Below, one piece after another: positions 50,782-63,460 of a stretch of 64,000 nucleotides of DNA. The notes under the pieces are model-generated. The model saw nothing but the letters and a program-made list of their open reading frames with translations. It did no database searches and was not told where the DNA came from. The position numbers were made by a program, and so were the translations under genes. Positions within the stretch are counted from its first letter, which is position 1, and each line of letters opens with the position of its first letter. This stretch comes from Candidatus Desulfarcum epimagneticum (lineage in GTDB: Bacteria; Desulfobacterota; Desulfobacteria; Desulfobacterales; CR-1). The stretch is taken from NCBI GenBank assembly GCA_900659855.1, contig CAACVI010000034.1, forward strand, positions 124,001 to 188,000, given 5' to 3'.

Positions 50782-52740
50782 TTAAGACGCTTTTTTAGAA
50801 TCCGCCCTGCGCGCGGCAAACCGCTGTTTCAAATTGGGAAACAGGTTGATGTCCGTATGGGGCAGAAACAGCGCCGCGATGTAGGAATCCATGTAGGACG
50901 GGGTTTCGGACAACTCAAAATTGGTGATTTTCTTCACCACCTCCACCACCTCCTGGCGCACATGGTTGGTGAGGGAGCTGATTTTGGCGCCCATGAGGGA
51001 GCCGTTGCCCAAAAACCGAATTTTGCCGGGGTCTATTTCCGGCAAAAGCCCGATGGTCATGGAGCGCTCCAGGTCCACGTAGCTGCCGAACCCGCCGGCC
51101 AGGAAAATCCGCTCAATGTCTCCCACGCCCAGGCCCACCTCTTCCAGCAGGGTCATAAATCCGCTGTAGATGGCGCCTTTGGCCCGGATCAGGTTGTCAA
51201 TGTCCGGCTCGGTGAGGACAATGTCCCGGTCCACCTGGCTGTCCTCTTTCCACGCCAGGACATACTCCCATATCCCTTCGGTCTCCCGTATGCGGGGCGT
51301 GTCCAGGTCCCGGTTGAATTTTCCCCCGCTGTCAATGACCCCTTCATCGAACAGGGCCGCCGCGATGGTGATGAGCCCCGAGCCGCACACGCCCTTGGGC
51401 CTGACATTGCCGATGGTGATGTTCATGGGCTCGAAGGTGTGGGGATCAATGGAAAAATCCTCAATGGCCCCTTTGGAGGCCCTCATGCCGAAGGTGATTC
51501 CGCCTCCCTCGAAGGCCGGTCCCGCCGAGCAGGCGGCGCAGGCCAACCAGTCCCGGTTTCCGATGACGATCTCCGCGTTGGTGCCGATGTCGATGAAAAG
51601 GGTCACCTCCTCGGTCCGGTACATGCCCGACGCCATGACCCCGGCCACAATGTCTCCCCCCACATAGCTGGAGATGGCCGGGTACACCAGCGCCAGGGCA
51701 TGGTCCTCCAGATCGATCCCCAGATCCCGGGCATGAATCGGGGGAAACAGGGTGGAGGCCGGCACATAGGGCGACAGGCGGATGTGGGCCGGGTTGATTT
51801 TCAAAAGAAGCTGGGTCATGGTGGTGTTTCCCGCCAGGGTGATGGAGGAGATGTCGTCCTTTTCCACCCCGGATTTCACCCGCATTTTTTGAATCAGCTC
51901 GTTGATGTTTTTTACCACGGCGTCGTGAAGCTTTTCAAGGCCCCCCTCTTTTCCCGCGAAAACAATCCGGGTGATCACGTCCTCCCCGTAGCTGATCTGA
52001 CCGTTGTAATCGCCTTCCCAGGCCAGGACATCGCCTGTGTTCAAATCGATGAGCTGGCCGTAAAGGGTGGTGGTGCCGATGTCCATGGCGATGGCGTAAT
52101 TCCGGCCCGTGGCGTCGCCGCCCTGGATGTTGATGATCTGGCTCTTTCGGTTTTCCCGAACCGGACGGGCCAGGGTGGCCGTGACCTTGAAGCCGTTTTC
52201 CCTCATGACATCCGGGGTCTTTCGGATCACCGGCAGATTGGCCGCCAGAAGGGTCTCGCCATGATCAATTTTCAGATGGGAGACCAGCCGGGCCATGTCG
52301 GGCAGGTTGTCTGTCTTCGAAGGCTCGGGAAGCTCCAGGTATCTTTTTTCCACCTGGGGGGTAAAAAGGCCCTCCTCCTTCAGATCGTCCAGGCGAAACT
52401 CCGCCTCCCGGGCCTTGGTCCGGGGTTTTTTCACAAAGGAGAAAGCGGCCCGGTCCATGGCCGACTCCACGGGAATCCGGATGACCACATCGCTTTCAAT
52501 GGTGGTCAGGCAGGCCTGCCGATAGCCTTTTTCGATGTCCTCCCGGCTCAGTTTCTCCGTGATTCCGCCTTTAACCTCCCCCTTCTCCACGATGACCCGG
52601 CATTTTCCGCACACCCCTTCGCCGCCGCAGGAGGCGTTGATGTGAACCCCCGCCTCCATGGCGGCCCGGATCAGGTTCTCGCCATGCGCCGCCTCCACCG
52701 TCACGTCGCCGGGCTGAAAAGTCAGTTTATGTTTCTTCAA
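50782..52740 (-). CDS. RACo-like corrinoid activation/ASKHA ferredoxin protein
   Basis: About 652 residues. The N-terminal 2Fe-2S domain has ligands C38, C44, C47 and C77. After a linker, an actin-like ATPase domain carries AMDIGTTTLYGQLIDL, ITLAGNTTMTQLLL, LFIDIGTNAEIVIGNRDW and IFLAGGFGSYVD. RACo proteins use ATP to return the cobalt of corrinoid methyl-carrier proteins to Co(I). The target methyltransferase is not in the window. The start is a TTG at 52740 with AGGAG seven bases upstream. Confidence 0.88.
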   Translation of the reverse strand: MKKHKLTFQPGDVTVEAAHGENLIRAAMEAGVHINASCGGEGVCGKCRVIVEKGEVKGGITEKLSREDIEKGYRQACLTTIESDVVIRIPVESAMDRAAFSFVKKPRTKAREAEFRLDDLKEEGLFTPQVEKRYLELPEPSKTDNLPDMARLVSHLKIDHGETLLAANLPVIRKTPDVMRENGFKVTATLARPVRENRKSQIINIQGGDATGRNYAIAMDIGTTTLYGQLIDLNTGDVLAWEGDYNGQISYGEDVITRIVFAGKEGGLEKLHDAVVKNINELIQKMRVKSGVEKDDISSITLAGNTTMTQLLLKINPAHIRLSPYVPASTLFPPIHARDLGIDLEDHALALVYPAISSYVGGDIVAGVMASGMYRTEEVTLFIDIGTNAEIVIGNRDWLACAACSAGPAFEGGGITFGMRASKGAIEDFSIDPHTFEPMNITIGNVRPKGVCGSGLITIAAALFDEGVIDSGGKFNRDLDTPRIRETEGIWEYVLAWKEDSQVDRDIVLTEPDIDNLIRAKGAIYSGFMTLLEEVGLGVGDIERIFLAGGFGSYVDLERSMTIGLLPEIDPGKIRFLGNGSLMGAKISSLTNHVRQEVVEVVKKITNFELSETPSYMDSYIAALFLPHTDINLFPNLKQRFAARRADSKKAS

Positions 52741-52799
52741 TGCGCCACTCCTGTCTGTCCATGTCTGTTTGAAATTAAAATCCGCTCGAGCCTCACGTT

Positions 52800-53315
52800 T
52801 CACTTGAGATTGAATCGGTGAATCAAAAAATCGGCGGTTTTTCCGGCCTCTTTCGGGGAAAACACCGGCGTCCGGGCGCCTTCGATGTCCGAATCGCTGA
52901 CAAACGCCAGCAGCGCCTCGTCGTCCCGGCAAAGGGGGCGGGGGGAAATCTCCGGCCGGAACACCTCTATTTTGGAGATGTTTTCGCGTTTGAAACCTTC
53001 GCAGAGCACAATGTCCACGCCGGGAAAAAGATACAGCCACTCCAAAGGGCCCCGATCCCGGTCCGCGTCCGCCACCATTCCCGCGCCGGACGCCGAAACC
53101 ACCGCCGCCACCGACGCGCCGGCGCGCTTGTGGCGCCAGCTGTCCTTTCCCGGCCGGTCGATTTCCGCCATTTCGGCCTTGTGGTGATGCTTGATGGTCC
53201 CCACTTTCAGGCCCCTGGCCTTGATTTCAGGGATCAGTCTTTCCATGAAGGTGGTTTTCCCGGATCCGGAATTTCCCACGATGGCCACCACAGGGGGCCG
53301 GTCTCCCGGCGTCAT
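52800..53315 (-). CDS. mobB: Molybdopterin-guanine dinucleotide biosynthesis protein
   Basis: 171 residues. The P-loop GNSGSGKTTFMERLI, then GTIKHHHKAEM and the DSWRHKRAGA block with a VLCEGFKRE motif define MobB, a GTPase that helps attach GMP to molybdopterin for Mo/W enzymes. It precedes the RACo-like gene by 59 bases. Confidence 0.93.
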   Translation of the reverse strand: MTPGDRPPVVAIVGNSGSGKTTFMERLIPEIKARGLKVGTIKHHHKAEMAEIDRPGKDSWRHKRAGASVAAVVSASGAGMVADADRDRGPLEWLYLFPGVDIVLCEGFKRENISKIEVFRPEISPRPLCRDDEALLAFVSDSDIEGARTPVFSPKEAGKTADFLIHRFNLK

Positions 53316-60307: not shown

Positions 60308-61306
60308 TCACTCAAAACGGCGCCAGGCCGTCGTCTCATACGCCAGGCGGGCCATCCGAAGGCGGGACACGATATCGGCGTCGTATGTGACGGCCGGGCC
60401 GCCGGGAATAGCGGCGCTTCCCCCGGATATCACGGCCCCGGATATTTCCCCGGACGTCCCGGTCTCGGCCGCGATTCCCTGTCCGGCGATGATCGCCCCC
60501 TCCCAGGACACCACTCCGGAAAAAGTCAGGGTCCCGGCCACGGCCAGAAGACCGTATCCCACGGGGTCGGCCAGGGTCAAATCCCCGGGGCAGAAAAACA
60601 CGCCCAGCCGGTCGTTGGCGCTTCCATAACGGGGAGAGTGGCGTCGGCCCGGCGCGAGGGTCGAAGAAGCCCGGGACCGGGCCCTGTCCAGGGACTCCTG
60701 AACAGGATACGCGGCCCCGCCCCCGCCGGGCGGCGCCCACAGGCTGGTCTGGGGGTCCGGGAAAACCGGGGAGGGCCTGATTTTCACCTCCACGCGCTTT
60801 TGGGATTCCCCGTAAAGGCCGGCCCCCCGGATCCACGCCATGGGGACGCCTGCGGAGACATTTTCCTCGCAGACAAAATCCCCGTCCACATCGCCCCAGA
60901 AGATCACATCGTCGGTGTCCGAATCATGGTTCAGATCCGACCCGCCAAACGCCTCGGTCAGGACCCGAATCTCCGCCAGGGCATTCATGTCGTTTTGAAG
61001 GCCGGGATAAAAATGATGATCCGAATTTCCAGGGTCGTAGGCGCCGAAGTCTCCCAAAGAAAAATCCCCCACGGCCGCGTCGCCGCCCAGGACAAAAACC
61101 CGCCACCGGTCGTTTGCCGGGGCGGACGGAGCCCAGACCGGAAGCCGGGCCCGGGCCTCCTCGATCCCGGCTTCGGCCATGTAAAACGCTTTTTTCCCGG
61201 CCAGGTCGTTTCGGACCATCATCAGCTCCAGGGAGGACATGAAATAGGCGGCGGAGCTTAAAACCGACAGCGCCGCGATGAGCATCAGGCCCGTGATCAG
61301 GGCCAT
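60308..61306 (-). CDS. PilX-type pilus assembly protein
   Basis: About 332 residues. The start NENGMALITGLMLIAALSVL is the PilX N-terminal motif for type IV pilin-like assembly, followed by AYFMSSLELMMVRNDLAGKK and AFYMAEAGIEEARARL, as in minor pilin-associated proteins. The rest is a large, Gly-rich extracellular or periplasmic part without a known domain, containing an EF-like DLNHDSDTDD stretch. ATG at 61306 is used; no good ribosome-binding site is seen. It lies 43 bases after cooS on the same strand, with no other pilus gene nearby. Confidence 0.75.
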   Translation of the reverse strand: MALITGLMLIAALSVLSSAAYFMSSLELMMVRNDLAGKKAFYMAEAGIEEARARLPVWAPSAPANDRWRVFVLGGDAAVGDFSLGDFGAYDPGNSDHHFYPGLQNDMNALAEIRVLTEAFGGSDLNHDSDTDDVIFWGDVDGDFVCEENVSAGVPMAWIRGAGLYGESQKRVEVKIRPSPVFPDPQTSLWAPPGGGGAAYPVQESLDRARSRASSTLAPGRRHSPRYGSANDRLGVFFCPGDLTLADPVGYGLLAVAGTLTFSGVVSWEGAIIAGQGIAAETGTSGEISGAVISGGSAAIPGGPAVTYDADIVSRLRMARLAYETTAWRRFE

Positions 61307-61349
61307 GCCGTTTTCATTTCCGGCGAGACATCCCCGGCCCCCGGCCCCC

Positions 61350-63416
61350 CTAAACCGGAAGTCCAAGGGCTTTGCGCTTCTCATCAATGCGGGCCAGCAT
61401 GGCCCGGGCGGCCTTTTCCGGATCGCTTTCCACATAAAACCGACCGCCCACAATATTCTCCACATCCCGGGTCAAGAGCCGGGCCATCCGGTCGCTGCCC
61501 GAGACATAGGGCGGCTCCCCGATATGGGTGAACACGCCCAGGCCCACGGCCCACACGCCGATGGAGACGGCCTTTTCCGTGATCAGCTCAGGCGCGGACG
61601 CCGCGACGGGCAGATCGCTGATTTTCACCTTGAGGCTCGCGGCCAGGGGGTTTAAGACATCCTCGATCCGGGCGTTGTCCACACAGGCCCCCATATGCCA
61701 GCACGCGGGAATGGCGTCAAGGCCATTGGCTTCGGCCACGGCCTGAAGGGTGGCCTTGAGCCCGGCGCCCACGCCGGGATAGGCCGGGTCCGGCGCCATA
61801 AGGCCCCGCTGGGCCGCCACATGGGACCAGCATCCCGTGCCCACCACCAGCACGTTTTCCTTGATGAGCCTTTGGGTCAGGATCGCGTGCCGGTATCCAT
61901 AGGGCCCCTTGGGCGAGACGCATCCCACGATGGCGGCCACCCCCCGGACGCGATTGGACGCGATGGCGTCGATCAAAGGCTTGAGGGGGTTCGCCGGGTT
62001 GAGTCCGGCCAGGGCCGCCACGATCTGCTCCACCGAAAACCCCGCCATGAGCCTGGCCGGGGCCTGTTTTGGGATCATCATCCGGTCCTTTTTCCGGTTG
62101 GCGAAGTTGTCCACCGCCGTCTTCACGATCCCGGCGGCGATCTCATCGGCCTTTTCAGGGACAAACTCCATATGGGTCGCCCCCTCGATCCGGGCGTGGG
62201 GATGGGTGGTGATGATTTTGGTATGAAAACGCCCGGCCACCCGCTGGATATTGGGCATGACGCACTGCACATCCACCACCATGGCCTCCAGCGCGCCGGT
62301 GGCGATGGCCAGCTCCTGCTGAATCATGGACCCGGCCAAAGGAACCCCTTTTCGCATGAGAAGCTCGTTTCCCGTGCAGCAGATTCCCACCACATTGATG
62401 GGCGGAGACGAGACGCGGCGGGCCGCCTCCAGGATTTTTTCCGAAAGAATGGGCTCATGGCCGTGGACCGCGATGTTGACCTGATCCTTTTCCAGAACCG
62501 TCAAATTGGCCCGCCCCAGGACCAGTTTGGGAACCCCGAACAGGATGTCCTGAATGGCCGAGGCCGGATGCAGGCCGCAGTAGCCGTCCACCAGGCCGAG
62601 CTTCAGGGCGTCCGCCGCCAGGTTCTCCATGTCGGAGTCCACCCCCATGTGAATCCGGTGGGAGGCCTCGCTGAATTCGGCGCCGGCGCCTGTGGGCAAA
62701 ATCCCCATCTTTTTCCATCGCGCCTTTCGCTCGGGATTCGCCTTGTATTCCAGCCAGGCCGGGGAGCCTTCGTTCCGGGAAAAATCGGCCAGCGAGGTCT
62801 CGGCCACGGCAAGGGCCTTGTTGGCCCCGGAGCAGCCCAGTCCTTTGTAAACGGCGTCCAGCTTGTCCGGGTCCGCGATCCGGTAACCGGGCAAATTTCC
62901 CAGCCCCACGCCTTTGAGTATTTTGGCGGCGGCCCTCATATGCTCGGCGTGGGACGCGGCGCCGCAGACCATCCGTGCCACCAGGCCCCGGGCCACAATG
63001 GTGTCCATGGTCGCGCCGCAAACCCCCCGCTCGTTTCCGGTGGCGTCCCCCAGGGTGCAGGGCCCCATCTGGCAGTGAAAGCAGCAAAGCCCGGCCACCC
63101 CGCCGTGTCCGGACTGGGAAAACTCGCACTGGGTCTCCCGGTCCCAGACCAGGTCGATGCCCAGCCTGTGGGCGTGCTCCCGGATCTCTTCGGTGATGGG
63201 ATCGGGCCGAAAATCTCCAAACGCCCCGGCGTCCCCCTCCCCGGAAAGGGCTTTTTTCTCCACTCCCGCCAGAACATGGGAAGGCCCGGCCATGGCCCCG
63301 GCGAGCCCCGCCGCCGCGGCCGTCTTTAAAAAATCCCGGCGGTTGACCCCCCCCGGGCATCCTGGGGAGCAGGCAAAGCCTTCGTCCTTTTTTTCTTTTT
63401 CATTTTTTTTACTCAA
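61350..63416 (-). CDS. cooS: Anaerobic Ni-Fe CO dehydrogenase with apparent Tat leader
   Basis: 688 residues. Cys97 and Cys111 can hold the D-cluster and Cys112, 115, 120 and 133 the B-cluster. The Ni-Fe C-cluster ligands fit NIAVHGH (His at 318-320), GICCTGN (Cys346 or 347), VDVQCVMP (385), VGCVSPK (499), VGTGCW (529) and MGACVDN (578). It interconverts CO and CO2. The unusual part is the N-terminus: RRDFLK at 26-31 with a hydrophobic run to residue 45 and a possible cleavage after VLA (50), the pattern of a Tat signal. The TTG start at 63416 has AAAGGAG seven bases upstream. Cys97 to Cys111 spacing is 13, longer than the usual seven. No cooF, cooC or cooA gene is near. Confidence 0.92.
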   Translation of the reverse strand: MSKKNEKEKKDEGFACSPGCPGGVNRRDFLKTAAAAGLAGAMAGPSHVLAGVEKKALSGEGDAGAFGDFRPDPITEEIREHAHRLGIDLVWDRETQCEFSQSGHGGVAGLCCFHCQMGPCTLGDATGNERGVCGATMDTIVARGLVARMVCGAASHAEHMRAAAKILKGVGLGNLPGYRIADPDKLDAVYKGLGCSGANKALAVAETSLADFSRNEGSPAWLEYKANPERKARWKKMGILPTGAGAEFSEASHRIHMGVDSDMENLAADALKLGLVDGYCGLHPASAIQDILFGVPKLVLGRANLTVLEKDQVNIAVHGHEPILSEKILEAARRVSSPPINVVGICCTGNELLMRKGVPLAGSMIQQELAIATGALEAMVVDVQCVMPNIQRVAGRFHTKIITTHPHARIEGATHMEFVPEKADEIAAGIVKTAVDNFANRKKDRMMIPKQAPARLMAGFSVEQIVAALAGLNPANPLKPLIDAIASNRVRGVAAIVGCVSPKGPYGYRHAILTQRLIKENVLVVGTGCWSHVAAQRGLMAPDPAYPGVGAGLKATLQAVAEANGLDAIPACWHMGACVDNARIEDVLNPLAASLKVKISDLPVAASAPELITEKAVSIGVWAVGLGVFTHIGEPPYVSGSDRMARLLTRDVENIVGGRFYVESDPEKAARAMLARIDEKRKALGLPV

Positions 63417-63460
63417 TATGAAACTCCTTTTGCGTCTTCACGCTCAAACGCCTTGTCTTC

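Follow-up and report, generated by a model that had tools for sequence, protein, structure and literature searches.

A predicted Tat leader, conserved in close relatives, on a Ni-Fe CO dehydrogenase of Candidatus Desulfarcum epimagneticum

The window, meaning the whole stretch of 64,000 nucleotides that was analyzed, belongs to a genome of 3.26 Mb (99.7% complete, 52 contigs). It contains, on contig 34, a gene for a carbon monoxide dehydrogenase (CODH), flanked by a PilX-like ORF and by a small ORF that matches no NCBIfam family. The gene and its features are as follows.

61350..63416, minus strand: Ni-Fe CO dehydrogenase of the CooS type with a predicted Tat leader, 688 amino acids from a TTG start (TIGR01702, PF03063, AlphaFold, fold search)
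61350..63203, minus strand: catalytic part, residues 72-688 (invariant columns and alignments to solved CODHs)
63267..63416, minus strand: predicted Tat signal peptide, residues 1-50 (passes the cut-offs of TIGR01409 and PF10518)
63324..63344, minus strand: twin-arginine motif NRRDFLK, residues 25-31 (alignment, codon-level conservation)
63282..63323, minus strand: h-region, residues 32-45 (mean Kyte-Doolittle value 1.06)
63267..63275, minus strand: predicted signal peptidase site V-L-A, residues 48-50 (constant offset from RR)
63081..63128, minus strand: remodelled D-cluster loop C97-x13-C111-C112 with a 6-residue insertion (alignment, loci count)
63424..63431, minus strand: Shine-Dalgarno sequence AAAAGGAG, ending 7 bases before the TTG start

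The product passed the cut-off of the CO dehydrogenase equivalog TIGR01702 (564.1 bits against 478, residues 73-686) and matched PF03063 with 460 bits. In an alignment of 14 sequences, the C-cluster residues H318, C347, C385, C499, C529, and C578 were invariant and aligned with those of CODH-IV and CODH-II; C112, C115, C120, and C133 of the B-cluster, H156/H159, and K615 were likewise invariant. We take the assignment of these residues to clusters from the CODH-II numbering. The CooS-like protein thus keeps its Ni-Fe and Fe-S ligands, as the original prediction had stated. An AlphaFold model computed with 14 sequences reached a pTM of 0.82 and a mean pLDDT of 80.7, with residues 1-64 and 95-119 below 50, and a fold search with this model found solved CODHs as the best matches (Z 57.5, rmsd 1.9, 605 residues aligned). 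The catalytic part, the cluster and acid-base positions, and the fold are the same as in the CooS CODHs of Carboxydothermus hydrogenoformans (CODH-IV, 6elq, and CODH-II), Thermococcus AM4 (6t7j), and Desulfovibrio vulgaris (6b6v), with Z values of 54-57.5. The chains of these four enzymes align from model residue 62-71 onward and have nothing like the leader of the window protein. Solved CODHs in nearly all matches listed align from residue 52-71 onward, and the Rhodospirillum rubrum and archaeal chains begin later among those listed, the leader part of the model being of low confidence and hardly tested by the fold search. On sequence grounds, the ORF was confirmed to encode a complete Ni-Fe CO dehydrogenase that bears a twin-arginine signal.

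Two curated models recognized this signal above their cut-offs: residues 24-46 scored 24.3 bits with TIGR01409 (cut-off 16.7), and residues 24-43 scored 25.4 bits with PF10518 (TAT_signal, cut-off 22.7). A six-frame scan of the organism's own genome gave seven TIGR01409 matches, of which the CODH leader was the best (30.5 bits); scored as whole proteins, the CODH reached 24.3 bits and the host's [NiFe] hydrogenase small subunit, another of the seven and a useful reference within the genome, 24.0 bits. The twin arginines at residues 26-27 are followed by TAAAAGLAGAMAGP (mean Kyte-Doolittle value 1.06) and by V48-L-A50, a cleavage site of the AxA type. Low hydrophobicity of the h-region is usual for Tat signals. 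In the AlphaFold model, the leader forms a helix at residues 26-39 with low confidence. The proposed Tat-type leader, read from RRDFLK, a hydrophobic run, and a cleavage site near residue 50, therefore stands, the Tat prediction on the N terminus having passed both models. Export of the CODH by the Tat pathway is strongly predicted, and the same genome encodes a TatC (TIGR00945, 221.5 bits, cut-off 132.7).

A scan of genome contigs yielded seven relatives, three of which carry a leader and are 57-67% identical over their best segment: those of BM005 (L037), PL23a_bin.99 (L038), and Desulfothermus okinawensis JCM 13304 (L043), the last with the leader MEKKTNEKGEHVDIKRRDVLKLTASGCLAGLLLKNKKAVAKS. 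A fourth (L039, 71% identical) is cut by a contig end before its N terminus, and the other three, at 38-40% identity, have no leader. The leader is therefore present in all three close homologues whose N terminus is sequenced, the very group in which its absence would have spoken against the original prediction. The motif NRRDFLK is identical in the window, L037, and L038 while their codons differ, and it reads KRRDVLK in L043; the distance between RR and the cleavage site does not vary among the four (VLA in the window, then VFA, VFG, and AVA). L037 and L038 also exceeded the TIGR01409 cut-off (24.5 and 20.7 bits). The leader of L043 gave no TIGR01409 match at E 0.001 and was identified by eye from a motif that looks orthodox.

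We compared codons among the window, L037, and L038 in three pairs. The leader segment compared begins ahead of RR and runs to the cleavage site; across its 26 codons, the pairs differed 9/5/15, 11/5/16, and 5/4/19 times at positions 1/2/3. Over the 22 linker codons after cleavage, the same pairs gave 12/11/15, 14/15/15, and 16/10/17, the last figures in each series being those of L037 versus L038. Changes in the leader thus fall mostly at third positions and those in the linker do not, suggesting selection on the leader peptide and a free linker behind it. A chance occurrence of RR was ruled out by this codon pattern and by the conservation across genomes. Several frame changes interrupt the L043 gene in the draft genome of D. 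okinawensis; its contig also carries an aprA that is split into two halves, each matching TIGR02061, and the other CODH of that genome has stop codons within its match. Because these genes are broken too, indel errors in the draft are the simplest reason for the frame breaks, and we think it unlikely, though not disproven, that the CODH copy is a pseudogene.

The translation start was as originally described, with a TTG codon and AAAAGGAG seven bases upstream. Shine-Dalgarno-like sites also precede the leader ATG of L037 (AAGGAGG), L038 (AGGGAG, the weakest), and L043 (GGGAGG), and no other start has such a site in all four. Ahead of the core, the window gene has two other in-frame start codons, an ATG at 42 and a GTG at 52, neither of which follows a Shine-Dalgarno sequence. 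Met42 has an aligned Met in L037 and none in L038 or L043; an internal start at Met42 was rejected on both counts. In L043, purine-rich, Shine-Dalgarno-like stretches lie upstream of an internal GTG12 and ATG68 and are not shared with the others; a start at GTG12 would still keep the RR motif, and one at ATG68 would cut into the core. Translation from Met42 or later, which would have removed the leader, found no support, as internal starts are not shared among the four.

The distribution of the leader was narrow. Tat CODHs and their close kin occurred in 4 of 389 genomes of an order sample (the genome itself and L044, L045, and L047, judged from their matches to be L037, L038, and L039), the complete ones scoring 1400-1461 bits versus 614 for the next CODH, with at most three candidates scored per genome. 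In a phylum sample with at most two candidates scored per genome, 21 of 395 genomes matched at 1e-170 and only the genome itself did so at the level of the Tat clade; L080, a truncated relative, fell just outside at 642 bits. Of 297 genomes from the order that includes Desulfothermus, 2 matched at 1e-170, with CODHs of 568-595 bits (L115-L117) that start at profile position 63-65 and have no leader; the frameshifted Desulfothermus copy itself lies below this limit, so the search passes over broken copies. Among the loci examined, 52 distinct CODHs contain CC..C..GPC, 3 with the leader and 49 without, and 17 further CODHs with another type of D-cluster also lack it, making 66 leaderless proteins at the N termini inspected. 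These loci are the best matches to our queries rather than a random sample, and the leader was sought by an RR-x-[FLVIM] search in the stop-free frame together with inspection by eye; an additional NCBIfam scan of six among the 66 gave no Tat match. Matches starting at query residues 14-60 (e.g. L011/L053) hinted at further leaders; in those that could be read, the true start comes after stop codons and the frame contains no RR. Judged by eye, the RR strings of L084, L090, L021, and L026 precede the probable start codons of the stop-free frame. A search of 72,556 plasmid records gave 2 matches, which begin at query residues 71 and 72 and leave the leader outside.

In a tree of 69 CODH rows (IQ-TREE, LG+C20), the four Tat sequences and L039 formed one clade (99/91), with L080 and L068 as its sister (100/100). 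The two groups stood apart from CODH-II/IV and the AM4 CODH, the three published enzymes included. L043 was included as joined fragments and its branch is long, and a check of the tree cautions that long branches may be what unites L080/L068 with the rest. Both L080 and L068 begin at contig ends inside the protein, which cuts off the N terminus; a search for full-length members of the sister group among 85 genomes from the order of G457 matched G457 alone at E 1e-120. With its His, Lys, and C-cluster ligands kept, the Tat CODH motif resembles clades E/F as set out in passages of PMC6344411. As the Tat members all belong to one clade, the leader and the change in the D-cluster loop may be one event and not repeated support.

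In CODHs, electrons leave through the D-cluster, which lies at the interface of the dimer. Its spacing is x13 in the window, L037, and L038 and, as read from the translation, in L043; it is x7 in each of the 49 others that contain CC..C..GPC and, in alignments, in CODH-II and CODH-IV. In the MAFFT alignment, six residues are inserted behind the Cys and four are deleted ahead of it. We take the joint occurrence of the leader and the long loop as a sign of a changed electron partner, but the two belong to one clade and could be one ancestral event. Residue 41 of CODH-II presumably lies near the first D-cluster Cys. The PDB titles of 8x9d and 8x9h (F41C) name CO dehydrogenase mutants, that of 8x9d one with increased affinity for electron mediators. 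A passage of PMC6344411 gives the range of the type II D-cluster as C-x7-13-CC; the x13 of the window is the upper limit of this range and falls within the type II definition. Given that range, long D-cluster loops are not unique to Tat CODHs.

In the surroundings of the window, L037, L038, and L043 genes, inspection of the ORF lists by eye and with heme motifs showed no genes for cytochromes, cooF, cooC, or Tat chaperones. The context thus names no electron partner, no such gene adjoining a Tat CODH. L037 lies between an EAL/HDOD-like protein (by eye, with one weak NCBIfam match) and a large ORF without an NCBIfam match, L038 lies among unrelated ORFs, and L043 lies ~0.5 kb before a sat-like ORF (just under the cut-offs), which is followed by aprB and aprA. 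Elsewhere in the genome of the window, an ORF for a four-heme class III cytochrome lies 167 bases after the tatC ORF; its nearest named family is TmcA, at 46.8 bits and below the cut-off of 114. QrcABCD, HmcA, and HmcB were found above cut-off. Hmc and Qrc complexes are typical of sulfate reducers. The genome also encodes a [NiFe] hydrogenase small subunit with a Tat leader (TIGR00391). At a distance from the CODH genes it encodes an ATPase that shares 69% identity with the CooC-like ATPase following L068. This protein matched no NCBIfam family above cut-off, and we call it CooC-like after the neighbor of L068. Two further CODHs are present, one with ORFs resembling ACS and a corrinoid protein adjoining it (by eye) and one a lone, leaderless CooS. 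The four other hosts of the Tat clade have 1-3 further CODHs each, and none of the six further CODHs readable in Tat-clade hosts (L001, L002, and L110-L113) has a leader. The Tat copy is thus an extra enzyme in these hosts.

Our preferred reading, which we regard as probable, is that the gene encodes an exported, Ni-loaded, homodimeric CODH that would oxidize CO in the periplasm and pass electrons via the remodelled D-cluster to class III cytochromes. Tat carries folded proteins, and the clusters and Ni would therefore be inserted before export. We infer that the CODH folds and receives its Fe-S and Ni clusters in the cytoplasm, perhaps with the help of the CooC-like ATPase, and assembles as a homodimer. 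The Tat translocase would then export the folded dimer, and the leader would be cut after A50. In the periplasm, the enzyme would oxidize CO to CO2 and 2H+, and the electrons would travel from the remodelled D-cluster exit to class III (c3-type) cytochromes and on to Qrc and menaquinone (or Hmc), a route shared with periplasmic hydrogenases and formate dehydrogenases in sulfate reducers. The CO/CO2 couple lies near -520 mV, which is ample. We infer this cytochrome partner, the physiology of the exported enzyme, and a possible energy gain. Qrc is described in passages of two papers as a cytochrome c3:menaquinone oxidoreductase for periplasmic H2 and formate electrons (PMC13059093) and as electrogenic (PMC6303296).

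The exported CODH might instead act as a CO scavenger or detoxifier that guards periplasmic metalloenzymes such as [NiFe] hydrogenase, with any energy gain incidental, which we consider possible but unlikely. The Tat-leader hydrogenase small subunit of the host fits such a role, as does the position of the Tat CODH gene, alone and without an evident energy-conserving partner gene. The best phmmer match to the protein among solved structures is CODH-IV (6elq), which we take to be of the CO-scavenging type, and part of PMC2901600 suggests CO detoxification by CODH for Desulfovibrio desulfuricans B-1388. A scavenger would still need a sink for its electrons, however; the D-cluster exit is remodelled rather than lost, and the ORF lists show no hydrogenase gene adjoining a Tat CODH.

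It is improbable, in our view, that the enzyme is exported and left uncleaved, with the Tat helix anchoring the dimer on the periplasmic side of the inner membrane near Qrc/Hmc. For hydrogenases of Desulfotomaculum ruminis, a passage of PMC3569383 predicts a Tat anchor that stays uncleaved, but the VLA/VFA/VFG/AVA site keeps a constant spacing in all four proteins, and the linker directly after it is unconserved in the three compared. We give slightly less credence still to a cytoplasmic CODH whose Tat-like leader is unused or whose translation also starts inside the leader. Characterized CooS enzymes are taken to be cytoplasmic, Met42 of the window has its counterpart in L037, and an AAGGG stretch precedes the internal ATG68 of L043. 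Against this, Met42 lacks a Shine-Dalgarno sequence, internal starts are not common to the four, the leader codons are under purifying selection, and the leader has the highest TIGR01409 score of its genome. An exported prismane-family enzyme with another reaction (hydroxylamine reduction or purely CO2 reduction) is very improbable: PF03063 also includes hybrid-cluster proteins (HCPs), and these appear in the fold search, but at Z 28 versus up to 57.5 for CODHs and with no HCP model match in NCBIfam at E 0.001, and the protein passes the TIGR01702 equivalog cut-off and keeps the C- and B-cluster, His, and Lys positions of CODHs.

Ni-Fe CODHs are regarded as cytoplasmic and ferredoxin-linked. 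The window protein has a conserved and rare Tat leader that points to an unexpected compartment. If it is exported, CO oxidation moves outside the membrane and the electron partner shifts from ferredoxin to a cytochrome, and Ni and Fe-S loading as well as dimer assembly are required before export. Among the matches listed in the literature searched, chiefly open-access main texts, we found no Tat-bearing or exported anaerobic CODH with a gene. The relevant passage of PMC11509735 treats periplasmic CODHs as speculation alone. Word searches of survey papers found neither "periplasm," "signal peptide," "twin-arginine," nor "export" in PMC13240472 and neither "periplasm," "signal," "tat," nor "export" in PMC13056359; in PMC6344411, "signal" and "export" are absent, and the passages with "periplasm" that were examined concern an ABC transporter.

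The host's [NiFe] hydrogenase small subunit (TIGR00391) has a leader of the same class and of close score, and the enzyme differs from the CODH in family and substrate. A [NiFe] hydrogenase is a folded redox enzyme that acquires its clusters before export, feeds periplasmic cytochromes, and consists of two subunits, one of which is carried along. CODHs are homodimers, so that each chain would bear a leader, unlike the two-subunit hydrogenase. The proposed logic would be the same as that of the periplasmic formate dehydrogenases of sulfate reducers, with a one-carbon donor outside and electrons passing to cytochromes and Hmc, although these are Mo/W enzymes unrelated to CODH. In one of them, Thermodesulfovibrio FdhA, a Tat signal is noted in part of PMC5165239.

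We also considered, as a doubtful extension, transmembrane CO cycling. CO formed in the cytoplasm by CODH/ACS or the leaderless CooS during acetate or pyruvate oxidation would diffuse out and be re-oxidized by the Tat-exported CODH, its D-cluster exit re-shaped for a c-type cytochrome; the protons would stay outside, and the electrons would return via Qrc. Voordouw is said to have described CO cycling in D. vulgaris in 2002, with CO as an internal intermediate and a cytoplasmic CooS. The present scheme would likewise make CO an internal intermediate, the CooS of the D. vulgaris scheme being cytoplasmic. Voordouw 2002 is cited for CO cycling in D. vulgaris in a passage of PMC3569383. A Tat-exported CODH would supply the enzyme outside the membrane with which energy conservation by CO cycling in sulfate reducers could be tested, and the scheme, if true, would be a third member alongside hydrogen cycling and formate cycling. 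One carrier of the Tat CODH, Desulfothermus okinawensis JCM 13304, is a culture-collection strain.

The n-region of the predicted Tat leader of the window CODH carries a pair of cysteines ahead of the twin arginines:

window 63357-63371, minus strand, C16 and C20, spaced C-x3-C

Among the four leaders compared, those of the Tat-leader CODHs of BM005 and PL23a_bin.99 (loci L037 and L038) contain an n-region pair spaced C-x2-C instead, and the pair is missing from that of Desulfothermus okinawensis (L043). One study (PMC6344411) describes additional N-terminal Cys motifs in certain CODH groups, for which a metallochaperone-like role was guessed. In the window CODH, the pair would depart along with the signal peptide.

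At the D. okinawensis locus (L043 2219-8946), sat-like, aprB, and aprA ORFs lie about 0.5 kb downstream of the Tat CODH on the same strand.

Three further features:

L068 1602-2405, CooC-like ATPase
L121 6178-6933, its 69% identical counterpart
L072 4139-6109, lone leaderless CooS

The ATPase follows the truncated sister-group CODH in L068, and its counterpart in the window's genome is placed apart from CODH genes. Neither CooF nor CooC was seen among the listed ORFs adjoining the leaderless CooS of that genome, which clusters in the tree with its CODH/ACS-type CODH, both being long-branched.

Two window ORFs were assigned by eye:

60308-61465, minus strand, ORF with a PilX-like stretch
50782-53040, minus strand, ORF resembling an ASKHA/ferredoxin-type activator of corrinoid proteins

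The CODH ORF has its 3' end inside the former, whose true start is probably internal. The putative activator ORF is overlapped by a MobB-like ORF (52800-53315), likewise judged only by eye.
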